Below, piece after piece: positions 58,717 through 62,514 of a stretch of DNA of 64,000 nt. The notes below the pieces were generated by a model, which had not been told where the DNA came from, did no database searches, and saw only the letters and a list, made by a program, of their open reading frames with translations. Source of the DNA: Aliidongia dinghuensis (GTDB lineage Bacteria > Pseudomonadota > Alphaproteobacteria > ATCC43930 > CGMCC-115725); the NCBI RefSeq assembly GCF_014643535.1, contig NZ_BMJQ01000004.1, positions 372,001 through 436,000 on the forward strand. The letters run 5' to 3'. Positions within the stretch are counted from its first letter, which is position 1. Every line of letters starts with the position of its first letter. The translations under genes were made by a program, and so were the position numbers.

Positions 58717-59193
58717 ATGGCGAAATGTTCAGGCTGGTACTACAAGGGGCCCGCGTGGCATCAGAACAGCCTCGTCGCGGTCAACGCCGATAGCCGGAGC
58801 GGCAAGGAGACTCGGAAAGATCTCCTGGGCCTCGGCAGCAATGAGGATGCGAAGGCCTTCATCGGGGCGCTCGACTACATCGCGCGCCTCGGCATCGAGG
58901 GAAAGGACGGCAAAAGCCGTGATCCGTTCGGCTGTGCCGAGCCCGATGCTGTCTACCAGCTGCTCAAGCTCGGTGCCGAGATCAACCAGATCTTCATCAG
59001 CCAGACACGCGAGAGCCGGGTTTCGACGTACTGGCGCGACGCCGGCGAAGAATATGACGTCTACCTGAAACCCTGCCCGTGCTGCCGCCTGTGGCTCAGC
59101 GCCGAACATCGGGCCGGGTACTTCATGATCGACATCAAGGAGCTTTATCGCCTGCGGGATCTCAACAGCAAGGCGACCACGTCCGACAAGTGA
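58717..59193 (+). CDS. Hypothetical protein with C-terminal CPCC motif
   Basis: 158 residues with a strong ribosome binding site (GGGAGG) at the right distance. No known domain was recognised. The sequence is hydrophilic and globular in look (KDLLGLGSNEDAKAFIGALDYIARLG; AVYQLLKLGAEINQIFISQTRESR). Near the end it has C120-P-C122-C123, which with C4 or C73 might bind a metal. A strong terminator-like hairpin follows its stop. Confidence 0.6.
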   Translation: MAKCSGWYYKGPAWHQNSLVAVNADSRSGKETRKDLLGLGSNEDAKAFIGALDYIARLGIEGKDGKSRDPFGCAEPDAVYQLLKLGAEINQIFISQTRESRVSTYWRDAGEEYDVYLKPCPCCRLWLSAEHRAGYFMIDIKELYRLRDLNSKATTSDK

Positions 59194-59196
59194 CCC

Positions 59197-59228
59197 AGGA
59201 GCCCGCTGCAAGCCGGCAGCGGGCTCCT
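59197..59228. terminator. Perfect 13-bp stem-loop between convergent genes
   Basis: Arms 59197-59209 (AGGAGCCCGCTGC) and 59216-59228 with a 6-base loop, 4 bases after the stop of the CPCC gene and 31 bases from the end of the TonB-receptor gene. Serves both directions. Confidence 0.8.
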
Positions 59229-59259
59229 GCGGCGACGGTGCATGATCACGTCCCGGCCG

Positions 59260-61560
59260 TCAGAAGTCCTTCGACACCGACAAGCCGACCGTCAGTGGCC
59301 GGACTGTGTAGCCCTCGTTGACCGAGAGCAGCGACGGCCGCTGGATCGTCTTGTTCTGGTCGAGCAGGTTCTTCACGAACAGCGAGACGACCAGGCTGCC
59401 GAAATCGGCACCGACGCTCGCGTTCAGTACGTTGTAGACCGGCCGGCCATAGTCCGGGTCGGTGTTCTGGAACGCACCGTGGCTCGGGCCCGTCCATTCC
59501 CAATCGGCACGGACGAAGCCGTCGACGCCGTTGGCGACTTCGGTCGTGTAGTCGGCGCCGAACGCAGCGGTCCAATCGGGCGTGCCCAGCAGCTTGTCGC
59601 CGACCGCGGCGCCCAGGCCCGGATCGGCTTGGGTCAGGGTCGAGTGCGTGTAGTCGGCGGACGCGGTCAGCGTCAGGGCCGGCGTCACGCGCGCGCGGAT
59701 CGAGAGTTCCGTGCCGTAGCTCTCGGCATTGCCGGCGTTCGTCGTGTAGTCGAAGCCGCAGATCGGCAGATAGATGTGCTGCTGCACGTTCTTCCAGGTG
59801 ATGTAGTAGACCGCGGCGTCGACCGAGACGCGATTGCCCCAGAAGCGCGCCTTGTCGCCAAGCTCGTAGCTCCAGAGCGAGTCGGCGTTGTATTTCTCCG
59901 GCGCGCCCTTGACGCCGAGGTTCTGGAAGTCGGCCGAGCATTCGAACTGCGGGATCGGCTGATTGGGCGCGCCGAGCCGGAACCCCTTGCTGGCATTGGC
60001 ATAGAGCGTCTGGGCCTCGGTCACGTCCCAGGTCGCCGCGAACTTCGGCGTCGCGGCATAGCTGCGCTCGTTGAAGCCGAACTGGGGCGCCGCGTCGGCG
60101 TTGTAATAGCCGCCGCCGGTGCCGCCGAGCGATTCGCGGGCGAAGTTATAGCGGAGGCCCGCTGTCAGGTGCACGGTCTCCCACGGGATATAGGTGAACT
60201 CGCCGAATACGGCGTATTGCCGCTCGTCGTAGCGGTCCGTGTTCGAATAGACGAGATCGCCCGTGAGCGGGTTGGAGATGACCGGGATATTGTCCGGCGT
60301 CGTGCCGTAGAGCTGCTGCAGCGCCGCACCGACGCCGGTGATGTATTCCTGGTCCGACAGATGGACGTGCTGGTCCGAGAAATAGAGCCCGCCGATCCAG
60401 GTATAGGGCCGGCCGGTGTCGGCGCTCGATTTCGAGGCGAGCCGCAGCTCCTCCGAATATTGCCGCGTGGTCGGGTAGATATAGGCGGGCGACGGCAGGC
60501 CGCCGATCGACGCCGGGTTGACGTTCGGGAAGGCGGCGACCGTCGCTGGGTCGGATGCCAGCGTGTTGGCGAGCAGCACGCTGTTGTAATAGGTGCCGTC
60601 CTGCACGCGATTGAACTGGCGCCAGAAATAGCTTGAGACCGAGGTGAGGTCGGCCCAGTGCAGGTCGTAGTCGGCAGTGATGCTGGGCACGAACAGCGTG
60701 TCGCGACCGCGCTCGGCGACCAGCTTCGCGGTCGAGAGCGACGGCAGGCTCAGGTCATAGACCGAGGTGTCGTCGACCCTGAGCCGCTGGAAGAACACGG
60801 CGGGCGTGATCGTGAGGTCGTCGCCGATGCGCGCCTTCAGGGTCGCGCGCACCACGCCGGTCTTCTCGTCGTTGATGTCGTGGTCGAGCAGCTGGCCCGT
60901 GGTCGACAGCTGGTCGATGTAGCCGCTGTTGTCGAGGAAATCGACGCCCAGGCGCAGCGCGGCCATGCCCTTGACGATCGGCACGTTCAAGACACCGCTT
61001 TCCTCGTAGTTGAGGCCGCCGTGCTTGGTGCTGGACAGCTCGGAATAGACGCTGCCGCCGAAATCGTCGAGGTCCGGCTGTTTGCTGATGAAGCGGATCG
61101 TGCCGCCCATGGAGCTCGAGCCGTAGAGCGTGCCCTGTGGGCCGCGCAGTACCTCGATCCGGTCGAGGTCGAAGAATTGCGGCTCGGTTGCCCCGGTATT
61201 GAGCAGGTTGCGCATCGTGATCGGCACTTCGTCCAGATAGATGCCGACCGTGGGCGAGCCTGCGTCCGAGCTGATGCCCCTGAGCTCGATCTTGCTGAGC
61301 CCCGTGCCGCCCTCGTTCGAGAAGGACAGTCCCGGCACCTCACGGGAGAGATCCGTGATGTCGTTGATGTGCTGTTCCTGGAGCTGCGTGCCGCTCAGAA
61401 CCGAGATATTGAGCGGGACTTCCTTGACGTCTTCCGCGCGCTTCTGCGCCGTGACCGTGATGACTTCGGTGCTGGACGCCCCGTCGGCGAGCGCTGCCAG
61501 CGGCGCCAGCAGAAGCGCGCCGCAACCGGCGCCGCACAAGAACCCGGCTCGCTGCCCCAT
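59260..61560 (-). CDS. TonB-dependent outer-membrane receptor
   Basis: 766 residues with a signal peptide. The TonB box region is TEVITVTAQKRAEDVKEVP, the plug carries GISSDAGSPTVGIYLDEVP and DRIEVLRGPQGTLYGSSSMGGTIRFISKQP, and the barrel ends with a C-terminal aromatic (LSVSKDF). It belongs to the large group common in sphingomonads and related bacteria with VTAQKR-type starts; ligands in this group range from siderophores to glycans or aromatics. No local sigma/anti-sigma or siderophore genes. Its 5' leader is strongly folded. Confidence 0.92.
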   Translation of the reverse strand: MGQRAGFLCGAGCGALLLAPLAALADGASSTEVITVTAQKRAEDVKEVPLNISVLSGTQLQEQHINDITDLSREVPGLSFSNEGGTGLSKIELRGISSDAGSPTVGIYLDEVPITMRNLLNTGATEPQFFDLDRIEVLRGPQGTLYGSSSMGGTIRFISKQPDLDDFGGSVYSELSSTKHGGLNYEESGVLNVPIVKGMAALRLGVDFLDNSGYIDQLSTTGQLLDHDINDEKTGVVRATLKARIGDDLTITPAVFFQRLRVDDTSVYDLSLPSLSTAKLVAERGRDTLFVPSITADYDLHWADLTSVSSYFWRQFNRVQDGTYYNSVLLANTLASDPATVAAFPNVNPASIGGLPSPAYIYPTTRQYSEELRLASKSSADTGRPYTWIGGLYFSDQHVHLSDQEYITGVGAALQQLYGTTPDNIPVISNPLTGDLVYSNTDRYDERQYAVFGEFTYIPWETVHLTAGLRYNFARESLGGTGGGYYNADAAPQFGFNERSYAATPKFAATWDVTEAQTLYANASKGFRLGAPNQPIPQFECSADFQNLGVKGAPEKYNADSLWSYELGDKARFWGNRVSVDAAVYYITWKNVQQHIYLPICGFDYTTNAGNAESYGTELSIRARVTPALTLTASADYTHSTLTQADPGLGAAVGDKLLGTPDWTAAFGADYTTEVANGVDGFVRADWEWTGPSHGAFQNTDPDYGRPVYNVLNASVGADFGSLVVSLFVKNLLDQNKTIQRPSLLSVNEGYTVRPLTVGLSVSKDF

Positions 61561-61564
61561 TCAT

Positions 61565-61641
61565 CCCCCCGTCCGATGAACAACCCCTTGTCACGCAAGT
61601 GCAATCTTCGTTCCACTTGCGTGACTGGGATGGACGGGGAG
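61565..61641 (-). promoter_or_regulatory. Folded leader of the TonB-receptor mRNA, hides the ribosome binding site
   Basis: On the minus strand: an outer helix pairs CTCCCCGTCC (61641-61632) with GGACGGGGGG (61574-61565), ten pairs with one U-G. Inside it a perfect 12-bp hairpin (61625-61614 with 61601-61590) has a 12-base loop. The GGGGGG Shine-Dalgarno run lies in the outer helix, 4 bases from the ATG at 61560. The inner hairpin may also end transcripts from the upstream gene. Confidence 0.55.
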
Positions 61642-61647
61642 TTCTCG

Positions 61648-62514
61648 TCAGGGTCGGGCGAGCAGGTCGATCAGGCTGGAGGTATCCCAGCGGTTGCCGC
61701 CGCGGGCTTGGACGCGGCCGTAGAACTGGTCGACGAGTGCCGTGACCGGGAGCGCCGCCTTGTTGCGCTTGGCCTCTTCGAGGCAGATCGCCAGATCCTT
61801 GCGCATCCAGTCGACGGCAAAGCCGAAGTCGAACTTGCCTTCGGCCATGGTCGCGGCGCGGTTCTCCATCTGCCAGGACTGTGCTGCCCCCTTGGAGATG
61901 ACCTCGACGACCTTGTTCGGGTCGAGCCCAGCGCATTGCGCGAAATTGATGCCCTCGGACAGCGCCTGGACCAGGCCGGCGATGCAGATCTGGTTGACCA
62001 TCTTGGTCAACTGGCCGGCACCGACCGGCCCCATCAGCGTCACGGCGCGGCCGTAGTGGACCATGACCGGCTCGGCCTTGGCGAAGGCCGCGGCGTCGCC
62101 GCCGACCATGATGGTGAGCTTGCCGTTGACGGCGCCGGCCTGGCCGCCCGAAACCGGGGCGTCGAGGAAGGCGATCCCCTTCTCGGCGGCGAGCGCCGCC
62201 AACTCGCGCGCGACGTCGGCCGACGCGGTAGTGTGGTCGGCGAGAATGGCACCCGGCGCCATGCCGGAGAAAGCACCGCCGGGCCCGGCCACGACCTCGC
62301 GCAGGTCATGGTCGTTGCCGACGCAGACGAAGACGATCTCGGCACCCTTGGCAGCCGCGGCCGGCGTCTCGCCCGAGGCCCCGCCGTACTCGGCGACCCA
62401 GGCCGCGGCCTTGGCGGCGGTGCGGTTATAGACGGTCACTGCATGGCCGGCGCGCTGCAGGTGGCCCGCCATCGGATAGCCCATGACGCCCAGGCCCAGG
62501 AATGCAAGCTTCAT
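61648..62514 (-). CDS. NAD(P)-dependent beta-hydroxyacid dehydrogenase
   Basis: 288 residues. AFLGLGVMGYPMAGHLQRAGHAVTVYNRT is the Rossmann dinucleotide motif; the Arg after VYN favours NADP-type binding but is not decisive. LDAPVSGGQAGAVNGKLTIMVGG is the substrate motif, and the catalytic Lys is in VGAGQLTKMVNQI. Candidates are 3-hydroxyisobutyrate dehydrogenase, tartronate semialdehyde reductase or a succinic semialdehyde reductase-like enzyme. It lies 27 bp after the inositol-monophosphatase gene on one transcript. Confidence 0.88.
   Translation of the reverse strand: MKLAFLGLGVMGYPMAGHLQRAGHAVTVYNRTAAKAAAWVAEYGGASGETPAAAAKGAEIVFVCVGNDHDLREVVAGPGGAFSGMAPGAILADHTTASADVARELAALAAEKGIAFLDAPVSGGQAGAVNGKLTIMVGGDAAAFAKAEPVMVHYGRAVTLMGPVGAGQLTKMVNQICIAGLVQALSEGINFAQCAGLDPNKVVEVISKGAAQSWQMENRAATMAEGKFDFGFAVDWMRKDLAICLEEAKRNKAALPVTALVDQFYGRVQARGGNRWDTSSLIDLLARP

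Follow-up and report, generated by a model that had tools for sequence, protein, structure and literature searches.

Bacterial gene ends may carry terminator-like hairpins that lack a U-run, with the stem a few tens of nucleotides past the stop codon, and the poly-U trail behind terminator hairpins has been reported to be unnecessary in some bacteria (PMC8355165). The hairpin described here, between a dehydrogenase gene and a TonB-dependent receptor gene, occupies the same position behind a stop codon, but differs from those cases in that the next gene begins only 29 nt past the stem and in that termination is here only what we infer. Among 32 other tandem stems listed from the same genome, just four had a shorter distance to the start called for the following gene, such starts being approximate. 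From a classical intrinsic terminator, the inner stem differs in having no U-run directly behind it.

Translational coupling is explained by two models, of which RNA unfolding is one, and a case at a spacing of +52 nt is the rpmI-rplT pair of E. coli, where an inhibitory helix lies on the downstream ribosome site and the terminating ribosome is distant enough to open this helix without covering the site (PMC12548453). Such a helix is predicted for the locus described here, and so, depending on the footprint assumed, is its opening by the terminating ribosome. However, precedents for RNA unfolding are backed by experiment, whereas coupling between the dehydrogenase and the receptor is a prediction. 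The pair also differs from the coupling precedents in being apparently species-specific among the genomes compared and, on its face, functionally unrelated.

The third system for comparison is btuB, a TonB receptor gene whose riboswitch works at the level of translation initiation (PMC11162775). Cobalamin riboswitch leaders of btuB-type receptors and the present leader have in common a structure on the receptor ribosome site, which in our case is a predicted one. They differ in that the gap studied here totals 87 nt, has no Rfam match at gathering scores and has no pocket-like architecture.

Locus and predicted structure

The window is the whole 64,000-nucleotide stretch of DNA that was analysed, and both genes lie on its minus strand. 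The upstream gene (61648..62514) encodes an NAD-binding dehydrogenase of the 3-hydroxyisobutyrate-dehydrogenase type with 288 aa, which carries the Pfam domains PF03446 and PF14833, does not reach the cut-off of any NCBIfam model shown, and ends in a TGA stop codon at 61650-61648. The downstream gene (59260..61560) is an ORF for a TonB-dependent receptor of 766 aa with PF07715 and PF00593, scoring far under the cut-offs of both NCBIfam B12-receptor models listed. Its ATG is located at 61560-61558 with an in-frame TGA immediately 5' of it, and the gap between the two genes is 87 nt. For the genome rankings the receptor start was fixed by hand at 61560, while the stem census used the caller's start at 61539. 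The order of the dehydrogenase gene, an inositol-phosphatase-like gene and a third gene, which we take to be HflX-like, was retained in three of four relatives compared; the middle gene had no match in the fourth relative (L069).

The gap contains two nested helices on the minus strand, and their arms, coordinates and nesting agree in both sequence and predicted fold with what the sequence-only reading had described. The 5' arm of the outer helix (61632..61641, minus strand, CTCCCCGTCC) starts 7 nt past the dehydrogenase stop. It pairs with a 3' arm at 61565..61574 (minus strand, GGACGGGGGG), forming ten pairs, nine of them Watson-Crick (eight contiguous) and one G-U. This 3' arm includes the Shine-Dalgarno run GGGGGG, so the Shine-Dalgarno run is paired in the predicted fold, as had been proposed earlier. 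The inner hairpin is a perfect 12-bp stem, 22 nt past the dehydrogenase stop and 29 nt ahead of the receptor ATG, with its 5' arm at 61614..61625 (GTCACGCAAGTG), its 3' arm at 61590..61601 (CACTTGCGTGAC) and a loop of 12 nt at 61602..61613 (all on the minus strand), within which the predicted fold has two weak pairs. Between the two helices, the minimum-energy fold also contains a middle helix of five pairs (5' arm 61627..61631, 3' arm 61583..61587, minus strand, 61627-61631 pairing with 61587-61583), which was absent from the earlier description.

The 121-nt fold of the minus strand reached z = -4.57, and none of 200 shuffles was equally stable. On the plus strand, the same dyad within 141 nt gave z = -2.81, with 2 of 200 shuffles as stable. 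Pairing energies of Shine-Dalgarno sites were calculated with the letters that we take to be those of the 16S 3' end; the predicted value for the receptor was -9.4 kcal/mol, and 71 of 667 genes, the receptor included, had an equal or stronger pairing.

The inner hairpin among the gene-end hairpins of the genome

The inner stem is far beyond chance. Stems were counted in 856 kb of the same genome (positions 1-400000 of C1 and 1-456000 of C4, with the studied window included), using crude gene calls whose starts, set by a home-made caller, are approximate. Between the genes of this sample lay 58 perfect stems that were at least 10 bp long and had loops of 3-15. Among gaps of at least 40 nt, those containing a stem of at least 10 bp numbered 16 of 61 if convergent, 31 of 251 if tandem and 7 of 109 if divergent; a gene 3' end was no more than 50 nt away for 38 stems, and a 5' end was this close for 10. 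For the first 60 nt past the stop in tandem gaps, shuffles gave an expectation of 0.1 for stems of at least 12 bp, of which 12 were observed; for stems of at least 10 bp the expectation was 0.6 and the observed number 25. Divergent gaps, which are without gene ends, were also above shuffles, though less so (8 stems versus 1.9), so some such stems are not gene-end hairpins. A T-rich tail was present in only 12 of 40 cases of a stem with a gene end. The inner hairpin of the dehydrogenase-receptor gap belongs to the class of perfect stems of at least 10-12 bp located no more than about 60 nt after a stop.

The sequence-only reading suggested a possible second role for the inner hairpin, that of terminating the dehydrogenase transcript. 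This role is favoured by its placement, which is like that of the gene-end hairpins of this genome. However, the stem is followed by AAGGGGTT and not by a U-run, no terminator-like site was found in 61000-62000, and the hairpin is absent behind 13 dehydrogenase orthologues. Termination at the inner hairpin would thus need Rho or another route, and the hairpin is not a conserved terminator of the dehydrogenase. For the class to which it belongs, we infer that transcription is terminated here.

Read instead as DNA, the same element forms a perfect dyad with two arms of 12 bp and lies 29 nt 5' of the receptor start. It might be the site for a dimeric regulator of the receptor gene, with RNA folding being incidental; a palindrome before a regulator-like gene (C2:165297) demonstrates that dyads do precede starts in this genome. 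However, the placement of the dyad fits the gene-end class, no sigma-70-type promoter match was found in 61000-62000, and no second site with up to three mismatches at fixed spacing was found in the 39 family genomes, its own included. An operator at this position is considered distinctly unlikely.

On the other side of the receptor gene, a 158-aa ORF on the plus strand (58717-59193) has no Pfam or NCBIfam match and falls within a region for which the compared stretch of the sister species shows no match at the DNA level. Between the converging ends of this ORF and the receptor gene lies a perfect hairpin of 14 bp (59196-59229), which lacks a U-run and is a further gene-end hairpin of the same class as the inner hairpin.

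Conservation of the leader and of its genes

The leader is present once in its own genome, and a DNA search of the other 38 genomes of the family (39 including its own) found no copy. Among these 39 genomes, 13 dehydrogenase orthologues with 73-91% identity were identified, each of 288 aa. The flanks of the dehydrogenase gene were inspected at 14 of 30 loci, namely those with at least 73% identity, its own included; no leader or hairpin was seen by eye behind any of the 13 orthologues. The sister species keeps homology to the window only up to the dehydrogenase stop, and different ORFs are found in the receptor's place.

An order-level search for the receptor (43 genomes) gave two genomes with a match at 1e-100, which were its own and that of the sister species, and a class-level search (385 genomes drawn evenly from the larger group) gave four with a match at 1e-120, where the best non-self identity was 49%. 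The receptor was also searched in two genomes of the genus. All of 1782 plasmid records were below 60%, the best among those listed being about 32%. One of the genome-contig searches gave no match, and the best in the other was 47% among the matches listed (at least 80 loci). Taken from the matches listed, the best relatives found are 45-49% identical to the receptor.

Twelve homologous leaders were chosen for comparison, consisting of the six non-self class-level loci (L003, L006, L015-L018) and the best six of at least 80 contig loci (L112-L117), with weaker paralogues (L004, L007 and others) left out. The homologue starts were placed mechanically, three of them were reset (L112, L017, L117), and L116 was unplaceable, leaving 11 leaders. 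None of these 11 placed leaders had a perfect stem of at least 9 bp between -140 and +20. L117, one of the three reset leaders, where 8-bp stems were also listed, has one stem of 8 bp. No homologous leader was thus found that could be aligned for the covariation on which the earlier proposal was to be judged. Judging from these comparisons, the pairing of dehydrogenase and receptor appears to be species-specific among the genomes compared; no relative examined has the leader, and conservation does not support a dedicated regulatory leader.

In two of the homologous leaders, L015 and L016 (genomes G286 and G365, from another family), the ribosome site GAGAGGACC is predicted to pair with GGTTCTCA / GGCTCTCA about 40-50 nt upstream. 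This helix is sequestering and unrelated to the one described here, and the two upstream arms differ by eye at one of eight bases.

The same comparisons bear on a receptor leader that responds to a ligand or to temperature, as a new riboswitch or thermometer would. Such a leader would be consistent with the sequestered Shine-Dalgarno run of the predicted fold and has a parallel in the translational riboswitch of btuB mentioned above. However, nothing similar was found in the 11 placed receptor homologues or, by DNA search, in the 38 other family genomes, and the predicted fold consists of plain nested helices without a multi-way junction for a pocket. Rfam, run over the whole window at gathering scores, returned a single match, a tRNA, so that the earlier remark that the structure resembles no known riboswitch class holds within this search. 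No evidence for a ligand-sensing leader was found, and a responsive leader is regarded as highly improbable.

The outer helix on the ribosome site

Once the hairpin and the base composition are granted, the outer helix alone is within chance. When the hairpin was kept and its flanks were dinucleotide-shuffled, 139 of 1000 sequences attained at least eight contiguous Watson-Crick pairs, 114 of 1000 attained the 10-pair length counting G-U, and the total energy was attained in 325 of 1000. A helix at least as long on the Shine-Dalgarno region was present in 31 of 666 genes of the genome, the receptor included, and among the 182 tandem pairs separated by 30-200 nt the same measure of helix length picked out 12. 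A second-tier helix of at least 8 was present at 7 of the 58 genomic stems, again with the receptor's included.

The predicted cost of opening the ribosome site ranks the receptor 77th of 666 genes (76 higher), and the leaders of 51 of 666 genes are more stable. With tandem pairs limited to gaps of 40-150 nt and no ribosome upstream, the opening cost ranks 4th of 127. Among the 16 Plug-domain genes found in the genome, with starts chosen by hand, three exceed the receptor's opening cost of 13.0 (14.3, 15.0 and 16.6). The comparisons of chance, opening cost, leader stability and Plug genes indicate that the second tier alone is unexceptional. The sequence-only reading had held that the structure should block translation unless opened; a helix is indeed predicted on GGGGGG, but with the opening cost at rank 77 of 666 and a helix within chance for its composition, a block of the strength claimed is not borne out.

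Predicted relief by a ribosome at the dehydrogenase stop

With a ribosome covering the mRNA to 61637, the predicted cost of opening 61558-61574 drops from 17.9 to 7.8 kcal/mol. In a first sample of 127 tandem pairs with gaps of 40-150 nt, the receptor ranked first for this relief. The ranking sample was then enlarged by 400 kb each from C2 and C3 to 262 tandem pairs, among which the receptor ranked first at footprints of +11, +13 and +16. The rank depends on the footprint, being 3rd of 262 at +9 and 141st of 262 at +6. The relief was attained by only 2 of 500 shuffles of the full gap and, when the other 261 gaps were shuffled, by 1 of 1044. It was also attained by 130 of 500 shuffles that kept the hairpin and by 93 of 300 shuffles of the 5' flank alone, indicating that the hairpin together with C-rich and G-rich flanks suffices to explain the relief.

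These results could point to a selected coupling element. Selection would then preserve the outer helix to make translation of the receptor strictly dependent on ribosomes that terminate at the dehydrogenase stop, with the inner hairpin serving to join the arms. The largest relief among the 262 pairs, seen for footprints of +11 to +16, its rarity in full-gap shuffles and the rpmI-rplT precedent at +52 nt argue for selection. However, the relief test was designed after the structure was already known, the rank falls to the middle of the sample at footprint +6, shuffles that keep the hairpin often attain the relief, and no conserved copy was found. In addition, the gap of 87 nt is long, while translational coupling is described as most efficient over small distances and as lowered by structure right after the stop (PMC12548453). 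We regard a selected coupling element as rather unlikely.

Two other gaps of the genome, C1:385261 and C2:165297, have predicted folds that resemble that of the receptor gap. The latter (G000:C2:165297) is a 116-nt gap upstream of a gene labelled by eye as regulator-like, and has a partly AT-rich palindrome inside a clamp of the CCTCCC/GGGAGG type on the ribosome site. This arrangement of hairpin and clamp begins shortly past the upstream stop, and its relief ranks second at +11 to +16 and first at +9.

Proposed reading of the gap

The best reading of the gap, which we hold with slightly better than even confidence, is a gene-end hairpin with possible passive translational coupling and no ligand sensor. 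The inner stem-loop, as an ordinary gene-end hairpin, would mark and protect the transcript whose last gene is the dehydrogenase, or help to terminate it, and the receptor gene appears to sit close behind this hairpin in this species only, among the genomes compared. In mRNA that reads through from one gene into the other, the C-rich stretch past the stop and the G-run of the ribosome site would zip together atop the hairpin and lower translation of the receptor. A ribosome terminating at the dehydrogenase stop would cover the 5' arm, and the block would be relieved, which corresponds to passive coupling by RNA unfolding. Termination or protection of the 3' end, co-transcription of the two genes and coupling in the cell would all be presumptive parts of this model, in which the gap holds a real yet mostly ordinary object, and a composition-driven clamp may couple the receptor to translation of the dehydrogenase.

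Biological implications

The locus calls for caution in a GC-rich genome with many gene-end hairpins that lack a U-run, as a hairpin shortly before a start codon can readily be the tail of the previous gene and not the leader of the next one. If the coupling is true, the gap would be a simple example of a newly landed gene tied to translation of the gene ahead. A further step, which we think quite improbable, is that a single species has converted the gene-end hairpin to use as a dedicated switch, bringing the C-rich post-stop stretch onto the ribosome site of the newly adjoined receptor, which would then be translated only alongside its neighbour. If the similar gaps at C2:165297 and C1:385261 act likewise, gene-end hairpins would be a general route to the coupling of new neighbours.
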